64,000 bases of DNA. It comes from Fibrobacter sp. UWB5. GTDB taxonomy: Bacteria > Fibrobacterota > Fibrobacteria > Fibrobacterales > Fibrobacteraceae. The position numbers and the translations under genes were made by a program. The notes beneath the pieces were generated by a model. The model ran no database searches and was not told where the DNA came from. It worked only from the letters and a program-made list of their open reading frames with translations. The stretch lies in contig NZ_MWQH01000001.1 of NCBI RefSeq assembly GCF_002210295.1, positions 744,001 to 808,000 on the forward strand. The letters are read 5' to 3'. This document shows positions 5,865-53,418 of this stretch, piece after piece. Position 1 is the first letter of the stretch, and each line of letters opens with the position of its first letter.

Positions 5865-7742
5865 ATGAAAAAAACTGGTTTTAAGGCTTTAAGCGGAGCT
5901 TTATTGCTCGGCGGAGCTGTTTCTGCTTTCGCTGCCCCGGGACTCACCGTGAGCGGCACCGATCTCATGTACAACGGCAAGAAGATTTTCTTCTCGGGTA
6001 CGAATCTCGCCTGGAGCGACTACAACTCCGACGTGGGCGATTCCCCCCTGAACGAAAACGCTTGGCGCAAGGCTGTCGAAGGCACGCGCGCTGCGGGTGG
6101 TAACGCCATTCGCTGGTGGCTCTTCAACAACATGAGCCAAAGTCCCGAAATCGATCAGAGCACACATCTGGTTTCGGGTCTCAAGGCAAATACCATCGCC
6201 AACATGAAAAAGGCCTTGGACATTGCCGAAGAATACGGCGTGATGGTTTCCATGTGCCTTTTCAGCCACAACCTGATGGAACCGAATCAGTGGGGCCTAT
6301 ACGACGAAAAGCTGGACATTACCGCAAACACGCAGCTTTTTGAAGACGCGGGCACCAAAGCCTTTATCGACAATGCGCTTGTTCCGGTAGTAAAAGCAAT
6401 CGGTAACCATAATGCGCTCATGACCTGGGAAGTGTTCAACGAACCCGAAGGCATGACAAGCGTGGGCTGGACCACCAAGAAACTCGACAAGGCTGTGCTC
6501 CAGAAGTTCACGAACAAGATTGCGGCTGCCATCCACACGGTAAGTCCGGAATTGCTCGTGTCTACGGGTAGCGTGAATATCCAGTATCAGAGCTGGTGGA
6601 ACGATTCCGAACTCATTGCTGCCGGTGGCGAATCGAACGGTACGCTCGACTTTTTCCAGACGCATTACTATCCGTACTACCAGAACGATGCCGTGTCTCC
6701 GTTCGTGAATACGGCTGCCCAGATGGCGACGACGTACAAGTACGACAACAAGCCCATGATTATCGGCGAATTCCCGGCAAGCGGCTGGAAGGGCAATACC
6801 TATACCGCAAGCATGGCTGCAAAGACTCAGATTTCTACCGAGGAATGCTACCGCAAGGCCTTTGACGGTGGTTACGCTGGCGCACTTGCCTGGCAGTACA
6901 TTGGCGACAAGACCGAATCGAACTTTGGCGGTTACACTTACACCATTGATCCGGCTCTCGATGCCATGAAATCTCTCGCCGCCACTGAAGAAGCTTCTAT
7001 CAAGATCAAGGATGTCGCCATCAGTCAAGAAAGTGGCGATGGCAAGATGTCGGTCACTTACGGTGGCGACAACGCCCAGATCGAATACCAGAAAACCTGG
7101 GATTTGAGCAAGGCCAATACGTTCACGTTCGAGGCCACCAACAAGGGCGAAAGCGATGCCCAGTTGCACTTGATTTTCAAGCTGACGGACGCTTGGACCT
7201 GGACCCCGGTGAATGATGACGACGGCGCATGCGTCGTGCCTGCGGGCGAATCCGTGACTTGCTCTTACGACATTTCCAGCTACGCCGACCGTAACAAGAC
7301 CTTGAGCGTCGTTATCGCAAACTATGCCGCAGGCTACACCGGTACAATCCTTTACGACAACTTCAAAGCGGGCGACCAGGTTCTCTGGGACTTTAACGAA
7401 GACAAGTACGACGCCTTCAGCCGCGGTTTCGAGAACACCGAAGAGATGATTCCCGAAATCAAAATCGTGTTCGAGGATCCTTCGGGAATCTGTATGCGTC
7501 CGCACGTTGCAGGTGCCAAGGCTCTGCGTGTAAGTGGCGACATGCTCACTCTTTCGGTGAATCGTACACAAGGCGTGACGGCGGAACTCTTCGATGTCAC
7601 GGGCCACAAGGTTGTAACGCTTCACAAGGGTACACTTTCTGCAGGCACGCACCAGTTCAAGGTGAATGCGGCTGCGGGTACATACTTTGTGAAGGTCGCA
7701 GGCCAGGGAATCAACCTGACTCAGAAAGTGATGCTGAAATAA
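5865..7742 (+). CDS. Secreted GH5 endoglycanase (mannanase-like) with accessory beta-sandwich and T9SS tail
   Basis: The 625-residue protein begins with a signal peptide (MKKTGFKALSGALLLGGAVSAFA). The start follows GAGGAG. The catalytic domain spans roughly residues 22-375. The acid/base is Glu193 in EVFNEPEG and the nucleophile is Glu302 in IIGEFP; THYYP and a WQY near the barrel end also fit GH5. The sequence most resembles bacterial beta-mannanases, but substrate cannot be fixed by eye; cellulase is possible. Residues about 385-530 look like a carbohydrate-binding-type beta-sandwich. The last ~75 residues (ELFDVTGHKVV ... GTYFVKVAGQG, ending VMLK) match a T9SS type A sorting domain, so export through the SprA channel encoded nearby is likely. 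A hairpin precedes the ribosome-binding site and a terminator follows the gene. Confidence 0.9.
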   Translation: MKKTGFKALSGALLLGGAVSAFAAPGLTVSGTDLMYNGKKIFFSGTNLAWSDYNSDVGDSPLNENAWRKAVEGTRAAGGNAIRWWLFNNMSQSPEIDQSTHLVSGLKANTIANMKKALDIAEEYGVMVSMCLFSHNLMEPNQWGLYDEKLDITANTQLFEDAGTKAFIDNALVPVVKAIGNHNALMTWEVFNEPEGMTSVGWTTKKLDKAVLQKFTNKIAAAIHTVSPELLVSTGSVNIQYQSWWNDSELIAAGGESNGTLDFFQTHYYPYYQNDAVSPFVNTAAQMATTYKYDNKPMIIGEFPASGWKGNTYTASMAAKTQISTEECYRKAFDGGYAGALAWQYIGDKTESNFGGYTYTIDPALDAMKSLAATEEASIKIKDVAISQESGDGKMSVTYGGDNAQIEYQKTWDLSKANTFTFEATNKGESDAQLHLIFKLTDAWTWTPVNDDDGACVVPAGESVTCSYDISSYADRNKTLSVVIANYAAGYTGTILYDNFKAGDQVLWDFNEDKYDAFSRGFENTEEMIPEIKIVFEDPSGICMRPHVAGAKALRVSGDMLTLSVNRTQGVTAELFDVTGHKVVTLHKGTLSAGTHQFKVNAAAGTYFVKVAGQGINLTQKVMLK

Positions 7743-7770
7743 GAATTATAAACACGAAGTCGTTTACTTT

Positions 7771-7803
7771 AAGGCTTTATCCTTTGAGATAAGGCCTTTT
7801 TTA
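7771..7803 (+). terminator. Rho-independent terminator after the GH5 gene
   Basis: An 11-bp stem (AAGGCTTTATC with GATAAGGCCTT, one G-T pair) encloses a 6-nt loop and is followed by a T-run. It lies 28 bp after the GH5 stop and separates it from the GLUG gene. Confidence 0.85.
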
Positions 7804-7839
7804 ATTACATTTACCTTGTATAATATAAGGAGGATGAAT

Positions 7840-10800
7840 ATGCTTAAAAGGGCGTGTTTGTTTTTTATTGCACTTTCTTGTGCCGTTTTCGCAGCAGATT
7901 TGGGAACTGCCGAAAATCCGTTGACCATTGATAACGAAAATGACTTGGTTTTGCTGCGCAATGCGGTGAATGCCGGTAGCGGTACATTCAAGGGTGTCGA
8001 CGTTTCTGATGGTGCGACGGACCTGTATTTTAAACTTGTCCGCGATTTGGACTTGAGTACAGTTTGCGGAAAGAATGTCGGAAACTGGACTCCGATTGGC
8101 TCCATGGAACATCCGTTCAAGGGCAACTTTGACGGCGACGGCAAGACGATTGACTATCTGTATATCGATGAAGATTTGCCGGAACGCGGTGATACGGAAG
8201 TAGGCTATTATGGCTTGTTTGGCGTGATGGAAACTGAATATGAGTCAACGACAGAAGTTAAAAATCTGACCATCGGCGAAAATTCCCGCATTTATTCAGA
8301 AAGGGAAGGCCAAGTAGGGGCTGTTGTTGGGCATGCTGGTTTTAATGTGATTATCGCTAATTGTAAAAACAAGGGCCGTGTGCATGGCAGGATTGCTGCG
8401 GGTGGCATTGTCGGTTTTGCAGGGAATGCTGCTCTCTCCGACGGAGTGCGTATCAAGAATTGCGTGAATGAAGGCTATGTCGATGCTATGCTCAAGGCAG
8501 GTGGCATTGTGGGGGCCGTCAATGGATTCGGAGTGCATATCGATAGCTGTACAAATTTGGGTGGCGTCTATGCGTCCGATACTGCTGCAGGAATCGTTGC
8601 GGCTGATTACAGTTCAATAATGACTTCCGCCAAGTTGAATTACTTGATTAACAAGGGAAACGTGAGCTCGGGTAAAATTTCGGGTGGTATCATTGCTGTT
8701 ACAGCAGACGGCGGGGCCTCCATTACGAATAGTTTTAATTCTGGTCACGTGCAGGCATCGACTTCGGCCGCAGGCATTGTAGGTCATTGGAAATCGATGA
8801 TGAACCCGCAGACCATTTTAACATGCGTAAATTCGGGCAGCGTTTTTGCGGGGACTAATGCGGGAGGCATCGTTGGGTTTGTCGCAGAATCTTCTCCTAG
8901 TTATATGAAGATTTCCCAATCGCTTAACTTGGGTGTAATCAATGCTGGCGCCTATGCCGGTGGAATTGTCGGAAACAACAATAATGGCGCGTTTTATGCA
9001 GACCATAATATGAATGCCGGCGCAATCGGCTTTGGTTATGCGGGTGGAATCGCGGGCCGGGTGAAAACAGATGCTGCTGAAAATATCGCTGCGAACTTAA
9101 GCATAGCCGCCCCTGATACCTTTGCAATCTATGATAGCGTCATGTCGCATTTTGAAGAGGATTGCCTGTATCCAGTTGATGCGGCGCATGCCTATGTTAC
9201 GGACAGCTTGATTTCGGGAAAGACTGTAGCTGCTCTGGGCGATTCCCTTTGGGTGTATAAGGAAGGCTACTATCCGCAAATCAAGACCCTTGCCGAAAAC
9301 CCAATGAAAGAAATCCGCGACGCTCAGCAGGTGGCCTCTACTCCGGTGCGCTTGGGCCTTGGCGATGACATCGCACACATCTCGAAAAACATAAGCTATA
9401 CGACTAAGGATGCCGCAGGGAATGCAGTCGATGTCTATAGTGCCCGCGGGAACATCTCTTTCGTGAACGATTCTGTTGCAACGCCTTATTCCCTGGGAAC
9501 GGATACCCTTTATGTGCTTAATGAAAATGCAACGAAAAAAATCATCGTGAATGTTTCTGCGATAAATGATTTGGGAACGCTTGAAAACCCGCTCACGATT
9601 TCTTCAGTGGAAGAACTGTTGCAGTTCAGAAAGGCTCTTGCCGATACGACTAAATACAAGGGCGTTCTAATGGATGATGCGGGTGCGCGTCTCGCGTTCA
9701 AGATTACCAAAGATCTGGACTTGAGTTCTGTCTGTGGCCCCAGCAAAGGCAACTGGACTCCTATCAAGAATTTCTTGGGTAAACTCAATGGCGCAAATCA
9801 CAAGATTTCGAATCTCTATATTGATATCGAAGATTCCCTTTCTCAAGTGAATGGAGGTCTTTTCGAAACGATTATCGCTGCCGATACGGCCATTGTTGAA
9901 AATCTGGTGCTTGAAAATGTCCATATTCGGCTTGCGGGAGGTCGTTCTGCAGGTGCGATTGCCGGTTACATGGGCGGTAATGTGGGTATTATTCGCAACA
10001 ATGTATCGGATGGAACCATTTACAGCAACGGAAGGGCTGGTGGCCTTGTTGCCTCGATTGGGTTAAACGAGTTCATCTTGCAGAACAATTTGGTAGAGGG
10101 CTCTGTCGAAGTCGCTCGTTCGGACAGTACCAAGTCTCAAGAGATTGTCGGTGGAATAATCGGGTTTACGGGTGGCACAAAAGCATCTGTTACAGGTAAT
10201 GTGAACCGGGCTAATGTGAAGGGTACATATGTTGATGCAGTGAGCGGTATTCTGGGTGTTATGTCTGCCCAGTCCACTATTGAAAATAATATAAACGAGG
10301 GAAATCTAACGGGTGTCGTAGGGTCGTATCTTGGTGGCATCGCCGGTGAAATTACTTCGTCTGTCAGATTTGTAGATAACCATAATAAGGGCGATGTCAA
10401 GGTCAATAGTTACGCAGAGTATGTTTATATGGGTGGTACAGTTGGCTTCTTGGCTGAAGTCTATTCAAATGATGGTGTGGTAGAAAATAATTCCAATACC
10501 GGTAATATTGATGTTAGCTTGTATGAGTACTTGTATGACAAATATGTAGGAGGTGTTTTCGGCAGATATATACATACGAAAGCATCTGACCTTGTGAATA
10601 AAGGTGATGTCTCTGCACTGGTATTAGCTGCAAGTACAGTCAAAGTGGGCGGCGTCATCGGAAGCGCAGACTATACGGATTCCGTTTCGCTTGCATTGAT
10701 TGTGAATGAAGGCGCCGTCGAAGTGAATGTCGATACATCTGAGGTTGGCACCTATGTGGGTGGCGTTCTAGGTTATTCCAATTCCAAGTATGTAGAAATT

Positions 10801-46324: not shown

Positions 46325-46362
46325 TTCGCGAATAGCTTTAGCAATCCTTAAAGAATTGATTA

Positions 46363-46387
46363 AGCCCGCTTTCGAGCGGGCTTTTTC
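46363..46387 (+). terminator. Rho-independent terminator of the nuo operon
   Basis: An 8-bp stem (AGCCCGCT with AGCGGGCT) with a TTCG loop is followed by a T-run. It lies 39 bp after nuoN. Confidence 0.93.
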
Positions 46388-46407
46388 TATGGTTTGTAAA
46401 AAAATGC

Positions 46408-46438
46408 TTGAGAAAGGACCTTTTTTCTTATATATTTG
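46408..46438 (+). promoter_or_regulatory. Candidate promoter of the fibro-slime gene (TTG-N20-TATATTTG)
   Basis: TTG at 46408-46410 and TATATTTG at 46431-46438 have exactly 20 bp between them. This is the best match here to the Bacteroidetes consensus. Confidence 0.6.
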
Positions 46439-46478
46439 TTACATGCGCTCAAAAATTCTTTAATCTAGGAGTCTCATG

Positions 46479-49115
46479 ATGAACAATAGACTATTAATGG
46501 CTGTGAGCCTTGCTTTTGCTCAAATGCTGTGGGCAGGGAACACAAAGCATTTCTTTGTGATGATTTCGCCTGACTTTGAAGAATGGATGTCTGCCGTGCC
46601 GATGATCAGTATGGATGGTGGAATGACGGGTAAAGCCATGACCGCTGTAGATGATATGTGCGGTTGGTTTTCTTATGCATTTACCGGTGAAGAACTTACG
46701 GACAACGTGGTGCTTTACCGTGATGACGACACTGAACGAGAAGACGTAATAGGTGTGAATGGTAACTGGGAAACCGCTGCCACGGCTCAACCGATAGCGT
46801 TGAAAATGCTCTTTAATATGGGAGTTGATTCCCTGTTCTTTGTACCAGACGAAGATCAGAAAACCAATGGCGATGGTTACTACTACAGCAAGGCAGAAGT
46901 AGACGGTATAGAAGGTACCTGCTCTTATGTTTTGGCCTCCATTATTTACGATACTGATGCTAGTCTGCATCCGGCATTCTCTTGCTATTCCGCTAGTGGC
47001 AAAGATTGCCAGCAAGGAGCCTTGGATGTAAAAGCTGCGGCCGCACTGCAAGCCGTAAATGCTTGCTTTGGTGTGACTCAGGGCCTTGTGTATTCAACTC
47101 TTGATGCGACTGTTCCTCAGTCCCAGAGAAAGCCGAAATTGAGTGCTAGCGGCAAGAAGTGCTTTATTGATGAAAAATACTTTAATATGTTGTTTAATTA
47201 TACTCCGGGCGTGAACGAAAAGAGCTGCTTTGACATGCCGTTCAAGCGTGCCAAGGATGGCAAGTGGGAATTTGACTCGGATTACTACACTAGCCCGGGA
47301 GTTAACGTACAGGGCGGTTTCTATCCGGTAGAGACTACGACAGATGCTGTGATTCTTGCGGCGGATCCGAACCAAGTCCCTGTGGCTGCAGCCCGTACCA
47401 AGCGTACGGCCGAAGGCCCGGTGTTCTATGCATCGCCCCTTCGTAAAATTAACCAAGCGGAACAGATGCCGGAGATTGATATTCTTTGCAATGGTCCGGG
47501 TTGGAACAAGGGCATGGATTGCGAAGGTCTCTTTGCCGATGGTGCCGGAACGGACGCCGCCCTTTCGCCTAAATTCGGTAAGTGTATTTTTGGTTGGAGC
47601 TGCAAGGCAGATGCTCCTGAAGATTGGGCATTCTTTGTGAGTGGAACTGAAACTCCGGCTGTAAGAAGTGACTCTAATGAACCGCGCTGGACGTCTAAGG
47701 TAAATGATGATGGCACTGGTGGCCGTAATCAGCATTACTGTTTAGAATCTCATGCTAAATTTGTTTATAAGCCCGGTCTGAAATTTAGCTTCCGTAGTGA
47801 GGGGGGTGATGCTTGGGTCTTTGTTGACAATACCTTGGCCGCGGATCTTGGTGGCATTCATTTATCGACGCCGGGGTATGTGGACCTAGATAAATTCAAG
47901 GGTTACGATGGTAGCTTGCTGACGGTTGGCAATCAGTATGACCTTGATATCTTCTACTGCGACCGCCGTACTCCTATGGCAGGCTTGCGTGTCAAGACGA
48001 ATGCGTACGTTTCGCGGAAGACTGCTATTAGCGTGAAGGGTAAAAAGAATCCGACAAATCCCGCTGAAACGTCTTACGAAATCTGCTTCACGGCGACAGG
48101 CGATGGTTCTTGCGCTTCTGCTCTGACGGGTTCTGACGAAGGAAAAACCTATTGCGGCTCCGAGCTTCTTCTGGAGGCGGGCATCATTCCCTCTTACACG
48201 CTCGTGAAAGGAAACAAAGTTTCTTCTGAACCGGTTGCTGGTTTTGAAGATGTTTCTACTTCGGGCGTGTACAAGTGCGGCATCAATTTGACGAATCCTG
48301 CCATTCCGAAGGTGGACAAATCCAGCATTTGCTTGCCGGGTGGCTATTACACCTTGTTCGTGACTATTGGTGGCAAGTCCAAGAAGATCATGAGCTTCAA
48401 GACCGCCATGGAAATGGATGTACTCTACAGGAACGGTAACGCCATTTCTGTGGATGATGAAACCGGCGATGTTGTTCAGAAGGGAAAGTACTCTGTGGAG
48501 ACCATCGCTATGGGTGGCGAAATGATTCCGGTCTATGTATCTGCCGTCTCCTCTAGTAACGATTCCAGTGACCTTGAAATCCTTCCGCAAGAAGCTGTCG
48601 GCATGGAATATACGCTCTCTTATGACAAGTTAATGAAAGTGTACAAAAAGATTGTTGACTCAAATGGTGACGAAACATTCCAGAAGATTCGTTCTGGTGA
48701 AAAACTGACAATCGGTGAGTCCGGTGTTGATACCCTCTACGCAACCGTTGATAAGGATGATTTGTCCGATTCTATTCAATCCTTTGAAGTCAGCGTGACG
48801 GGTAGGCCCAATAGCCTGAAACTGAACTTCTCGAAGAATCCCGTTTCCGATAAAATTCCAGGAAAGGGTGGCGCTGCAGTTGGAAAAATTGCAAAGTCTT
48901 CCTTCTACGTGAGACAGACGGGCTCGTATCAATTTACCATTGTGATGGATGAATCGGTTACGTCGATCCAGAGAAACTTTGCCGTGATGGATCTGCAGGG
49001 CCGAATTGTGCAACAAGGTGTAATCAATTCTACGGAGACCACTGTACCGGTGTTGTCGTCCGGCACCTATGTGGTCAAAGTTGGCCAGGAAATGCAGCGA
49101 ATCAACGTTCGGTAG
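46479..49115 (+). CDS. Fibro-slime domain surface protein with T9SS tail
   Basis: The 878-residue secreted protein begins with a signal peptide (MNNRLLMAVSLAFAQMLWA). The start at the second ATG has TAGGAG at better spacing; the first ATG adds one Met. The fibro-slime core lies at about residues 390-510 and resembles a PA14-like lectin fold (FSFRSEGGDAWVFVDNTLAADLGG, YDLDIFYCDR). The N-terminal ~330 residues contain several Cys pairs and no recognised family. The last ~75 residues (FAVMDLQGRIVQQG ... GTYVVKVGQ, ending RINVR) form a T9SS sorting domain. Fibro-slime proteins are linked in the literature to cellulose adhesion by Fibrobacter; here the role is inferred. Confidence 0.88.
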   Translation: MNNRLLMAVSLAFAQMLWAGNTKHFFVMISPDFEEWMSAVPMISMDGGMTGKAMTAVDDMCGWFSYAFTGEELTDNVVLYRDDDTEREDVIGVNGNWETAATAQPIALKMLFNMGVDSLFFVPDEDQKTNGDGYYYSKAEVDGIEGTCSYVLASIIYDTDASLHPAFSCYSASGKDCQQGALDVKAAAALQAVNACFGVTQGLVYSTLDATVPQSQRKPKLSASGKKCFIDEKYFNMLFNYTPGVNEKSCFDMPFKRAKDGKWEFDSDYYTSPGVNVQGGFYPVETTTDAVILAADPNQVPVAAARTKRTAEGPVFYASPLRKINQAEQMPEIDILCNGPGWNKGMDCEGLFADGAGTDAALSPKFGKCIFGWSCKADAPEDWAFFVSGTETPAVRSDSNEPRWTSKVNDDGTGGRNQHYCLESHAKFVYKPGLKFSFRSEGGDAWVFVDNTLAADLGGIHLSTPGYVDLDKFKGYDGSLLTVGNQYDLDIFYCDRRTPMAGLRVKTNAYVSRKTAISVKGKKNPTNPAETSYEICFTATGDGSCASALTGSDEGKTYCGSELLLEAGIIPSYTLVKGNKVSSEPVAGFEDVSTSGVYKCGINLTNPAIPKVDKSSICLPGGYYTLFVTIGGKSKKIMSFKTAMEMDVLYRNGNAISVDDETGDVVQKGKYSVETIAMGGEMIPVYVSAVSSSNDSSDLEILPQEAVGMEYTLSYDKLMKVYKKIVDSNGDETFQKIRSGEKLTIGESGVDTLYATVDKDDLSDSIQSFEVSVTGRPNSLKLNFSKNPVSDKIPGKGGAAVGKIAKSSFYVRQTGSYQFTIVMDESVTSIQRNFAVMDLQGRIVQQGVINSTETTVPVLSSGTYVVKVGQEMQRINVR

Positions 49116-49144
49116 CGAAAACGAATCCGTATAACTAGAAGAAG

Positions 49145-49184
49145 AATCCTTTTTTGTTAAATTTATACAAAAAAGGATTTTTTT
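49145..49184 (+). terminator. Terminator-like hairpin overlapping the ispF ribosome-binding site
   Basis: A 13-bp stem (AATCCTTTTTTGT with ACAAAAAAGGATT) with a 9-nt loop is followed by a run of T that ends at the ispF ATG. The right arm contains AAGGA, the only good ribosome-binding site of ispF, at 7-nt spacing. The loop carries TAAATTTA, a possible promoter box of ispF. Confidence 0.7.
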
Positions 49185-49670
49185 ATGGATAAGATTTATC
49201 GTTCGGGCATCGGGTTTGATGTCCACAAGTTGGTAGAAGGCCGCAAGTGCATTATTGGCGGCGTGGATATTCCTTACGAAAAGGGCTTGCTCGGTCACAG
49301 CGATGCAGACGTCTTGCTGCATGCCATTAGCGATGCCTTGCTCGGTGCCGCTGGCCTTGGCGATATCGGTACGTACTTCCCGGATACAGACCCGGCATTC
49401 AAAGGCGCTGACAGCTTGGAACTTTTGCGCAAGGTGGGCGAAGAAGTCCGTAAGGCCGGTTACGAAATCATCAATATCGACAGTATCGTGATGTGCGAAC
49501 GCCCGAAGGTGAACCCGCACAAGGACCAGATGAAGGCAAACATTGCCCGCGTACTCGGTCTCGATATCAAACAGATCGGTATCAAGGGTACCACCACCGA
49601 AAAGCTCGGTTTTACGGGCCGTGGCGAAGGTATTGCCAGCCAGGCTGTTGCCATGGTTCGCAGCCTTTAA
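49185..49670 (+). CDS. ispF: 2-C-methyl-D-erythritol 2,4-cyclodiphosphate synthase
   Basis: The 161-residue enzyme makes MEcPP from CDP-ME-2-phosphate in the MEP isoprenoid pathway. The zinc ligands Asp12, His14 (GFDVHKL) and His46 ([12 protein letters not shown]) are present. [22 protein letters not shown] and the C-terminal signature [20 protein letters not shown] are all clear. Size is normal for a single-domain IspF, not the IspDF fusion. It is flanked by surface-protein genes and its ribosome-binding site lies in the right arm of a terminator-like hairpin. Confidence 0.98.
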
Positions 49671-49707: not shown

Positions 49708-52700
49708 ATGCTTAAACGAATCTACGCAGCTGTATTGCTGCTTGTATTCGCCCAGGTCTCGTATGCGGCCTGGGATGGTTCCGTCAAAATTCCGAAAACG
49801 GTCAAGACCGGCGGCGTGGAATACTACGAGATCACCTCACCCGAGGAACTGATCGGTTTCTTGGATTCCGTGACGACGGCGAATATGGGCAAACCAAGCC
49901 TCAGGGCTTATTTGAAGAACGATATCGTTTTCGGTGCCGATACGTCAAAGCTTTGTTCCAAGCGATGGGTACGTAGTAATCGTAACGAGTACTTCGAAGG
50001 CGATTTTGATGGCAAGGGCCACACTATTTACGGCTTGAATGCGGAACGTTCGTTGTTCCAAATCGTGGGTCAGGGGGGCGGCTTCGTTCACGACTTTAAT
50101 GTGGCGAACAGTTCTTTTGGCAGCGATACGGCCTATATGGCCGCTGCGGTAGTGACAGAAATGCAATCGGGGCTTTCGAACGTAAACGTAATCAATACGG
50201 ATGTTCGTAGTGGATTTATCGCAGGCGGCGTTGTGGCTCGAATGCTGAGCCCTTCGGATGCTCAATTGGCTTATATCTTGAGCTGCAATATGATTGGTGG
50301 TTCCGTTAAAGGTGGCACCTATGTGGGCGGTGTCGTAGGTACGGCTTATGGGCGCATTGCCGGTTGTAGCAATTCGGCGAAGGTCACTTTTGTAAAGAAT
50401 GAACGTGTCCAGCCGGAGTACAATATCTTTGTTGGCGGCATTGCTGGCGATGCAGAAGCTCGAGACGGTATCGCTATTGAAAATAGCGTTAACCGCGGTG
50501 ATGTCGAAATGGTGTCGGGTGCTTCGCTGTCTTATGCGGGTGGCGTTGTCGGTTTTGTGTTGGGCTCTGTGACGAACCTTCAGAACTATGGAAAGGTTTC
50601 TGCGAAGACTGCCTTTACTTGCGATACGGTAAGTTCTGATTGGCAAATTACTCTTTATGTCGGAGGTATTGCTGGTAGCAAGCATTACCGTAATTACGAA
50701 GAAAGCGAAACCCGTGATTTCGTGAACGAGGGCGATGTAACTGCGATTGTTGAATCTGCTCTTGACGAAGGTATTTTGGCAGTGGGCGGAATCTTTGGTG
50801 AAAACAAGAATAACGCCTTCCGCAATGCCTTGAATAAGGGTACCGTCAAAGCCTATGGCTCCGGTAAATACAGAAAGGTTTATGCCGGTGGCGTTATCGG
50901 TTACACCGCGATTTATTCGAATGTACGCGGTTATGAAAAGCTAGGCAACCGCGGCAATGTCTCTGCCGAAGGCCCGTACCGAGTTTGGACGGGTGGCATT
51001 GCCGGTTATTTGGAACGCGCTACTTCTCCGTTCCTCGCATTGTCCTTGTCTTACAATTATGGCGATGTTACCGGTTCTGTTGCAGAAGATCCGACAGAAT
51101 ACGGTGTCTTGAATGTGGGCGGTGTTCTTGGCTATGCTGACGGGCTTTCCATTTCCGATGTCTATAATCGTGGTAAAGTGATTGCCAAGGGGAAGTTGAA
51201 TAAGGGAAGTAGCGAAGTGGGTGGACTTGTCGGCTTCTTCAATTATTCCGATCGCCCGATTTCGAATTCTTACAGCGCCGCTCCCGTTGTCAAAGGCGAT
51301 ACCCTTGGCGGCATTTATGGATATTCGGGCCTGAGCTATTCGCCGATCAATACTTACTATGACGGCTCTCTTGCGAATATTGCTACGGCAGGCAGATTCT
51401 ACTATGATGCGACCAATAGCGCAGAATGCAAAAAGACAACTGAAGATCTCCAGAGCGAAAACATGGTTGTCTTGCTGAATACGACTGGCGGAACGGTGGC
51501 TAATCGCAATTTGTGGACGCGTCGCCCTGACGGTTATCCGGTTCTCAAGTTCGATAGCCTGTATAAGAATGATTCTGCTTATTTCGATATGCAGCAGTAT
51601 GCGATGCCGCCTTCTCAAGCAGATGGCGATACCTTGGTTTATACCATTTCTAAGGCGGAAGAATTGGCAGCCTTTTTGGAAATGCCTCGTTATTTCGAAA
51701 AGTATGGGTACAAGAAAATTAAGGTGGAGCTTGCAAGCGATATCGTGATGGGCCGCGACACTACGCTTTTGGCTGCTCGTCAGATGTCTGCGGATACGGG
51801 CTATACCAGTTGCCTGAAGGCCGACTTTGACGGTAAAGACCATGCCATTTATGGCCTCAACATGTCGAGAGCGATGTTCTTCTGCATGGATTCTGGCGTG
51901 GTCGTGCAGAACTTGACCATTGCAAACAGCCGCTTCGAAAATGACTGGGGTTGGTCTGCGGCAGCCGTGGTTATTAGTAATGGCGGCACTGTTAGAAACG
52001 TGACTGTGCGCAACAGCTTGGTTCGCGGTGGGTATTCTGCGGGCGGCATTGTCGCTAACAACCATTATGCGAAATATGGCATTGTGCTGAATTCTAAAAA
52101 TGAAAATACGACGGTGATTTCGTCGAATATTTCTGGTGGTATTGCCGGTGAATCCGAAGGCGTGCTGCAGAGCGTTCGAAACTCTGGCCGGGTGTATGGA
52201 CGCTTGGCTGGTGGCATTGTAGGTAAAAACGCTCCTTATTACATTTTCAACAATAGTGCTAGATTGGTTTCTGACGCTTACAATTCGGGAACGGTTGTTG
52301 CCACTGGCGAAGCACCTGTTGCTGGCGGTGGCATTGCTGGTTATAGTCAGTTGTCTGTCATAAGCGGCGCGTTTAATACGGGCTTGGTCGAAGGATCCGT
52401 CAATAGGGGAGCGCTTATGGTCGGTGGCGTTGCGGGCCGAATCGATTCAACAACGACCCTTACGGGATCGGGTAACTGGGGCCGTGTGCATGCTCTGAAT
52501 GGCGAAATGGTTTATGCCGGTGGCTTGGCTGGACGTGTTGATGGAAACATAATGTATGATGCGGATGGAAACGGTTTCGGGCTTCTTGCTAATGTGGTGT
52601 TCAGCTTTAATTACGGCCCTGTGACTGTAAAGAAGGCTTCTGATGAATCTTATGCGGGTGGGCTCATTGGTATTGGCAAGGGCATTACCATGCAGACAGA

Positions 52701-53418
52701 TTATAACAGAGGTGCCGTAAGAAACGAAGCGAATGTCGCTAATGCCATAACGGGTGGAATCGGTGGGTTGTTGGATTCCGTGATTATCGCTCAGTCTTAC
52801 TCCTATGGCGACACCTTGATTGGTAAAAAGGTGGGAGCCGTGCTTTATGAACCGACAGGCTTTTTCAAGTTTAACCATGTGATGTACGCCTCGAATATAG
52901 AAGATGCCTATAGAGTTTCTTCGGCAGCAGGGACTGATTCCATTGTGGAACCCCTGAGCTTTGAAGAAATGATGTATCCGTCTGTGATGCAGTTGCATCC
53001 GGGTTTCAAGAACGAAAAATATGTTGATAATGGGTGCTTGCCGGTATTCAGTTATGACACGACGAGCGCTTGCGCGGTAACGGTGGTCAAGGACTTCTTT
53101 GGCGACGCCGATGAACCGTATAAGGTGGGCTATATTGTAGACGTCTTCTATGCAGATTCTACGTTGAATCCGAATGATAGCGGCTTGACTCCTGTGTTGC
53201 CGAAACCGGTGGTTTCGCTGTTGCAGGTGGAAGTTTCTGGTCGTAACGTAGCCGTGACGGGCTTGCTTGAGAATAGGCCTGTGATGGTGTTCGATATGCG
53301 TGGCCGCATGGTGGCCTCGGTTCGATTCCATGGGACTTCGGTGAACCTGATGATTCCGAAGTCGGGCCGTTACCTGGTCCGTAGCGGCAAACAGTCTCGC
53401 TTGATTGTTGTCAGATAA
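49708..53418 (+). CDS. GLUG-repeat surface protein, two modules, T9SS tail
   Basis: The 1,236-residue protein has a signal peptide (MLKRIYAAVLLLVFAQVSYA) after the ribosome-binding site TTAGGAG. It is built of two homologous modules. Each begins with a YEITSPEEL/YTISKAEEL segment, then a D(G)KGH/DGKDH-IYGLN strand, and continues with many GGVVG/GGIAG-type GLUG repeats predicted to stack as a beta-helix. The C-terminal ~70 residues (FDMRGRMVASV ... YLVRSGKQSRLIVVR) are a T9SS-type tail. The second module is closely related to the single-module protein encoded 30 bp downstream. Adhesion or surface-layer function is inferred. No catalytic motif is visible. Confidence 0.86.
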   Translation: MLKRIYAAVLLLVFAQVSYAAWDGSVKIPKTVKTGGVEYYEITSPEELIGFLDSVTTANMGKPSLRAYLKNDIVFGADTSKLCSKRWVRSNRNEYFEGDFDGKGHTIYGLNAERSLFQIVGQGGGFVHDFNVANSSFGSDTAYMAAAVVTEMQSGLSNVNVINTDVRSGFIAGGVVARMLSPSDAQLAYILSCNMIGGSVKGGTYVGGVVGTAYGRIAGCSNSAKVTFVKNERVQPEYNIFVGGIAGDAEARDGIAIENSVNRGDVEMVSGASLSYAGGVVGFVLGSVTNLQNYGKVSAKTAFTCDTVSSDWQITLYVGGIAGSKHYRNYEESETRDFVNEGDVTAIVESALDEGILAVGGIFGENKNNAFRNALNKGTVKAYGSGKYRKVYAGGVIGYTAIYSNVRGYEKLGNRGNVSAEGPYRVWTGGIAGYLERATSPFLALSLSYNYGDVTGSVAEDPTEYGVLNVGGVLGYADGLSISDVYNRGKVIAKGKLNKGSSEVGGLVGFFNYSDRPISNSYSAAPVVKGDTLGGIYGYSGLSYSPINTYYDGSLANIATAGRFYYDATNSAECKKTTEDLQSENMVVLLNTTGGTVANRNLWTRRPDGYPVLKFDSLYKNDSAYFDMQQYAMPPSQADGDTLVYTISKAEELAAFLEMPRYFEKYGYKKIKVELASDIVMGRDTTLLAARQMSADTGYTSCLKADFDGKDHAIYGLNMSRAMFFCMDSGVVVQNLTIANSRFENDWGWSAAAVVISNGGTVRNVTVRNSLVRGGYSAGGIVANNHYAKYGIVLNSKNENTTVISSNISGGIAGESEGVLQSVRNSGRVYGRLAGGIVGKNAPYYIFNNSARLVSDAYNSGTVVATGEAPVAGGGIAGYSQLSVISGAFNTGLVEGSVNRGALMVGGVAGRIDSTTTLTGSGNWGRVHALNGEMVYAGGLAGRVDGNIMYDADGNGFGLLANVVFSFNYGPVTVKKASDESYAGGLIGIGKGITMQTDYNRGAVRNEANVANAITGGIGGLLDSVIIAQSYSYGDTLIGKKVGAVLYEPTGFFKFNHVMYASNIEDAYRVSSAAGTDSIVEPLSFEEMMYPSVMQLHPGFKNEKYVDNGCLPVFSYDTTSACAVTVVKDFFGDADEPYKVGYIVDVFYADSTLNPNDSGLTPVLPKPVVSLLQVEVSGRNVAVTGLLENRPVMVFDMRGRMVASVRFHGTSVNLMIPKSGRYLVRSGKQSRLIVVR

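Follow-up and report, generated by a model that had tools for sequence, protein, structure and literature searches.

A hairpin at the ispF start codon of Fibrobacter sp. UWB5 that may combine a promoter box, a weak terminator and a ribosome-site mask

We analyzed a 64,000-nucleotide stretch of the Fibrobacter sp. UWB5 genome (hereafter, the window), in which nuoN and ispF lie 2.9 kb apart (46325-49184) with a fibro-slime gene and its promoter-like site between them (Table 1). The identities originally given to ispF and the slime gene were borne out by family models (TIGR00151 and PF02542 for the former, TIGR02148 for the latter), and the slime protein additionally gives a match to a T9SS-type C-terminal tail (TIGR04183, 21 bits) that falls under the cut-off of 23. 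Relatives of the slime protein occur in all of the 80 genus genomes; outside the locus, the closest one is on C4 of the same genome (73%). The nearest named records come from Fibrobacter, chiefly F. succinogenes or Fibrobacter sp. MAGs. Downstream of ispF, a 1,236-aa protein (49708-53418) has no NCBIfam or Pfam match, and its relatives adjoin ispF in several genomes at 27-91% identity.

Table 1. Features of the nuoN-ispF interval and of ispF, in window positions
Feature	Position	Strand	Evidence or remark
GC-rich terminator-like stem, 3' of nuoN and 5' of the slime gene	46362-46383	+	d 28.8
Promoter-like site of the slime gene, TTGAGA-17-TATATT, box TATATTTG	46408-46436	+	10/12 matches
Fibro-slime domain protein, 879 aa	46476-49115	+	TIGR02148, 97 bits
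Left arm AATCCTTTTTTGT	49145-49157	+	sequence and fold
Loop TAAATTTAT, 9 nt	49158-49166	+	sequence
Box TAAATTTA, TAnnTTT class, proposed ispF promoter element	49158-49165	+	footprint in relatives
Right arm ACAAAAAAGGATT	49167-49179	+	sequence and fold
Putative ispF transcript start zone, from box position	49168-49173	+	leader about 12-17 nt
AAGGA, ispF ribosome-binding site, within right arm	49173-49177	+	sequence
T7 run up to the ispF ATG	49178-49184	+	sequence; candidate terminator tail
ispF, 2-C-methyl-D-erythritol 2,4-cyclodiphosphate synthase, 161 aa	49185-49670	+	TIGR00151, 219 bits; PF02542, 234 bits

The original prediction described a hairpin that abuts the ispF ATG and includes the AAGGA site in its right arm, and both the sequence and the fold confirm it. 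After a gap of 29 nt from the slime stop codon, the two arms form a perfect 13-bp stem that takes in the first two T's of the T7 run, leaving five (49180-49184) beyond it. The palindrome is near-symmetric on both strands and centers on the loop box. As RNA, the surrounding 76 nt (49125-49200) have a minimum free energy of -22.5 kcal/mol (z -5.9), a value that none of 200 dinucleotide shuffles equaled. Against Rfam, window positions 48900-49400 gave five matches up to an E value of 1, all under the gathering score.

That the loop holds a promoter box is the claim that gained most from comparison with relatives. We compiled 69 distinct ispF upstream regions from 86 loci, merging identical ones and counting related sequences apart; one search gave no DNA match for nine of the 80 genus genomes, some of which entered by another route. 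The window box starts 27 nt 5' of the ATG, and a TAnnTTT motif starting 25-35 nt 5' of the ATG was present in 37 of the 69 regions vs 4.6 ± 1.9 in dinucleotide shuffles (39 vs 8.2 ± 3.0 in a wider zone of 24-46 nt). Box-to-ATG spacing is 27 nt in L009 and L072 and 25 nt in L055, and the sequence further upstream differs. Because upstream sequences vary widely across the regions, the recurring box reads as the footprint of an ispF promoter, and on this comparison the loop box is very probably an ispF promoter element; it is the best-supported part of our reading of the hairpin. In class it resembles the TAnnTTTG promoters of Bacteroidota as described in passages of PMC7366714, fitting TAnnTTT at a position conserved among ispF regions but ending in A rather than G. 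It also differs from them in its surroundings, since a -35-like TTG 22-24 nt 5' of the box was found in none of the 39 ispF regions that have a box, the window included, and the upstream (-33/-35) element of that promoter type is therefore absent at ispF. In this genome such a TTG precedes 25 of 112 seeds, and, of 413 genes whose upstream space is free, 36 are preceded by a TAnnTTTG box. Near ispF there is another -10-like sequence, TATAAC, at 49130; a transcript from there would start near the left arm and retain the hairpin. A literature search on Fibrobacter promoters or transcript starts found nothing relevant.

Transcripts that differ in their 5' ends are predicted to differ sharply in access to the ribosome site. 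In read-through RNA, opening 49174-49178 (AGGAT, one base downstream of AAGGA itself) would cost 12.9-13.0 kcal/mol, with a mean unpaired probability of 0.00, and RNAs starting at 49169, 49171, or 49173 would pay 0.3-0.4 kcal/mol for the same bases. These values agree with two parts of the original prediction, namely that read-through transcripts hide the AAGGA site and that a box-started transcript, lacking the left arm, leaves it free. Across the 69 regions, the predicted cost of opening the last 14 nt 5' of the gene together with its first 6 nt is highest in the window (17.4, with the next at 10.6 and a median of 5.6). Hence, by the folding model, masking of the ispF ribosome site in read-through RNA is physically likely.

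How unusual is such a stem? In a census of 640 ORFs from 864 kb of the genome (simple ORF calling), perfect stems over the ribosome-site zone reached 13 bp twice, 12 bp once, and 10 bp once, ispF tying for the longest with a gene in L042; another of these four stems of at least 10 bp, in L047, probably reflects a miscalled start behind an ordinary terminator. The pattern TCCTTTTTT-N3-25-AAAAAAGGA has a single site in the whole genome, the ispF hairpin. These counts bear on a reading in which the complementarity is a by-product of a T-rich flank and an A-rich site, lengthened by chance and playing no role in termination or translation. Such a flank and site are indeed common in the genus: at ispF, T runs 5' of the box are found repeatedly, as are AAAAAAGGA-type sites, many relatives have an A-rich AAAAAGGA-type site in the same place as the window's AAGGA, and part of the T6/A6 complementarity is this T-rich promoter flank opposite an A-rich ribosome site. 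Further, over 100 boxed genes, flank-to-ribosome-site pairing did not clearly exceed that of swapped pairs (-5.03 vs -4.69 ± 0.21, p 0.057). Set against the by-product reading are the recombined upstream regions, 6,400 of which gave at most 11 bp (once, with 10 bp once), and the 316 upstream halves joined to the fixed proximal 20 nt of ispF, the best of which other than its own gave 10 bp. We consider the by-product reading improbable. Within the ispF family, where related sequences were included, real pairing exceeded swapped pairing (p 0.008, or 0.046 without the window).

Conservation of the two arms gave a mixed picture. Over 78 ispF regions (the 69 distinct ones plus nine from named genomes), perfect stems across the ribosome-site zone extended to 13 bp in the window species alone, 11 bp in L058 (genome G099), 10 bp in L005 (G004) and L064 (G101), 9 bp in L102, and at most 8 bp in the other 73. 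A search of the genome collection, which possibly left out records very near the window, found both full arms in no other species. The conservation expected of the element held for the box and the A-rich ribosome site, and did not hold for the 13-bp stem, of which shorter forms of 10-11 bp exist in three relatives. Since the full stem occurs in one of 78 regions, conservation lends little support to a function of the hairpin, and the original prediction of an insulating device is unsupported insofar as it implies one long maintained. Among the sequences seen, only one species has the full stem, and the layout on which it is built is found in part in close relatives. The loop contains the box in L005, L058, and L064 as well. 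There the left arm shares sequence with the tail of the terminator-like stem of nuoN, whose T run can form 10-11 bp with the ispF ribosome site, so that in these relatives a masking stem and the terminator would be in competition. The same comparison speaks to the idea that the palindrome is a repressor operator over the ispF promoter, as its near-symmetry on both strands about the box might suggest: the full arms occur in that one region, the search of the genome collection found no match to both, and the palindrome has a single genomic copy, which together make an operator very unlikely.

The relatives also hint at where the arrangement came from. In G004, G099, G101, and G102, whose nuoN is 91-93% identical, nuoN ends 93-101 nt 5' of ispF and the T run of a terminator-like stem runs into the box (stems identified by eye). 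Such a T run enters the ispF box, again by eye, in L004, L005, L008, L010, L058, L062, and L064, while nuoN ends 10-48 nt 5' of ispF in L022, L029, L070, and L081. Where nuoN falls inside the fetched DNA, its distance to ispF ranges from 10 to 1,365 nt, and at other loci it lies outside the fetched stretch; the interval is possibly an insertion hot spot. One genome, G029 (L010), has different sequence 5' of ispF with a GC-rich terminator-like stem of its own. Aligned as a possible source of the left arm, ACATTCC-T8-AAATTTG in G004 stands against AGAATCC-T6-GTTAAATTTA in the window; because the stretch is T-rich and short, the idea that the left arm descends from the tail of the old nuoN terminator is suggestive only. 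The arrangement probably arose when the slime gene came between nuoN and ispF, and once the two were separated the full form would have been assembled from parts already there (T run, box, and A-rich site). With the 13-bp stem in the window alone and shorter stems of the same layout in three relatives, it has the look of a recent fusion, peculiar to this species, of a terminator, a promoter, and a ribosome site, and is probably not an old, selected device.

Whether the hairpin terminates the slime-gene transcript is less clear-cut. Using a terminator score known from the literature, we obtained d 7.0 for the hairpin, a value that 0 of 640 mononucleotide-shuffled gene ends reached and that 91 of the 640 real ends exceeded, which places it at rank 92 among the 99 ends scoring above zero. 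Its 11-bp core starts 31 nt past the slime stop codon (median of the 99 ends, 28), and no other candidate between the slime stop codon and ispF was found by a terminator scan and scoring; the scan, with a loop limit of 8, did not list the hairpin itself, whose loop is 9 nt. Of the usual features of an intrinsic terminator, a stem and a U run past the stop codon are present and a G+C-rich stem is absent, with G-C pairs at 3 of 13 positions and a G-C share of 0.27, the third lowest of the 99 (median 0.71). The predicted terminator is accordingly a plausible one, weak and AT-rich: its score above every shuffle and its being the sole candidate speak for it, its composition and rank against it.

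These same values allow the hairpin to be just the terminator of the slime gene, lying unusually near ispF, with masking a side effect that has no consequence because little RNA reads through and ispF is supplied by its own promoter. Its ordinary stop-to-stem distance for this genome, its score above all shuffled regions, the terminator-like T runs that enter the ispF box in relatives, and the lack of conservation of the full hairpin are all compatible with this account, whereas it leaves unexplained a stem so AT-rich for this genome's terminators and an opening cost in read-through RNA that is the most extreme of the 69 regions. We regard a terminator without consequence for translation as possible but rather unlikely.

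We lean, by a little over an even chance, towards one 40-nt element with three jobs, those of promoter, terminator, and ribosome-site mask. Polymerase would start just past TAAATTTA, within the right arm, and the transcript would carry a leader of about 12-17 nt in which AAGGA is free. RNA from the slime gene would fold the stem shortly past its stop codon and mostly end in the T run before the ispF ATG; RNA that reads on would retain the stem and hide the ispF ribosome site, so that the dedicated transcript alone would be well translated. For this proposal the conservation of the box is taken from sequence and the masking from computed energies, and we infer the transcript start, termination, and reduced translation.

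Transposase leaders of IS10, IS50, and IS200 offer a broad parallel, in that transcripts from outside fold the ribosome site away and IS200 has a terminator-like stem as well. These are, however, mobile elements with longer leader structures and antisense RNA, and, unlike the proposed ispF promoter, theirs is not known to lie in the loop of the masking stem. The passages of PMC8450116 on IS200 had no bearing on read-through, and literature searches on insulation by ribosome-site masking turned up general papers.

Closer precedents come from phage T4, where the masking trick itself is already known. According to passages of PMC3014915, long upstream transcripts of gene e sequester the ribosome site, and promoters directly upstream yield efficiently translated transcripts from which the 5' part of the structure is missing; the ispF site is likewise predicted to be hidden in the longer RNA and freed in the putative box-started one. 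The same source reports that deleting the 5' portion of the I-TevI structure raised the I-TevI level, and PMC2988022 describes for the intron-encoded I-TevI, I-TevII, and I-TevIII and for segB and mobE a promoter whose position keeps its transcript from forming the inhibitory stem. On paper, then, the ispF mechanism would match gene e and I-TevI, and a promoter at the proposed ispF box would likewise avoid the stem. The differences are that gene e is under temporal control by late promoters and that it and the other genes belong to a phage, whereas ispF is a housekeeping gene; that similar gene e leaders are described in closely related phages, whereas the full ispF form is found in one species; and that the gene e hairpin is not called a terminator in those passages of PMC3014915, whereas the ispF hairpin has a T run and may be one. 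A terminator role would thus be a possible addition over gene e and I-TevI.

If the three-job reading is true, a single 40-nt stretch would close one gene, open the next, and determine which of the messages is translated. It would place a phage-style switch before an isoprenoid-pathway enzyme gene, provide a ready-made compact insulator, and illustrate how a newcomer gene can take up a place between two neighbors and leave the second one undisturbed. Its wider importance is modest, because the full hairpin occurs in one species only, unless the lipoprotein gene described next and others form a class.

The best second example of the ispF layout is a lipoprotein-like gene (by eye) on the minus strand (L045:2347-3225, equal to G000:C1:502347-503225), where TGTTCTC-T8 opposite AAAAAAGGAGAACA gives a ribosome-site-masking stem, about 16 bp long, whose loop contains TATATTTA; this is the second strongest pairing of the 100 genes, at -15.6 kcal/mol. 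The hairpin also occurs in G029, whose copy of the gene is 96% identical, and in G079, where one base of the A run is changed and no compensating change was seen; the folds are -15.3 (G000), -17.7 (G029), and -13.9 (G079), and G033 has a terminator-like T run where the hairpin sits elsewhere. Across the 80 genus genomes, the pattern TCCTTTTT...AAAAAGGA...ATG had 19 hits in 17 genomes, the window included, vs 4 hits in 4 genomes for one non-complementary control pattern, and 12 of the 19 hits are followed by an ORF of 150 aa or more, vs 3 of 4 for the control. Because a single orthologous gene accounts for six of the 19 hits and the two strands of one palindrome for two more, and given those ORF fractions, the excess in independent genes is small. 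We therefore rejected a genome-wide class of left arms complementary to ribosome sites, and claim no general rule, since the excess is small, the energy test over 100 genes is non-significant, and the pairing test within ispF ignores kinship. That Fibrobacter repeatedly builds box units in which a T-rich flank complements an A-rich ribosome site, so that read-through RNA would be ignored, most clearly at ispF and the lipoprotein gene and with the ispF unit doubling as its neighbor's terminator, is a doubtful extension to which we give a low chance.

The orthologous gene behind the six hits is flavoprotein-like (by eye, from its first residues). In six Fibrobacter genomes (L149, L150, L153, L156, L157, and L160) its ATG is preceded by the TCCTTTTT...AAAAAGGA stem with a TATCTTT or TATATTT box. 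The L042 gene that ties with ispF in the census is ATPase-like (by eye; minus strand, 7675-8794, GTG start) and has TCACTATACTTTT opposite AAAAGTATAGTGA with two TATATT boxes between them, a stem that could serve as an operator or mask the start.
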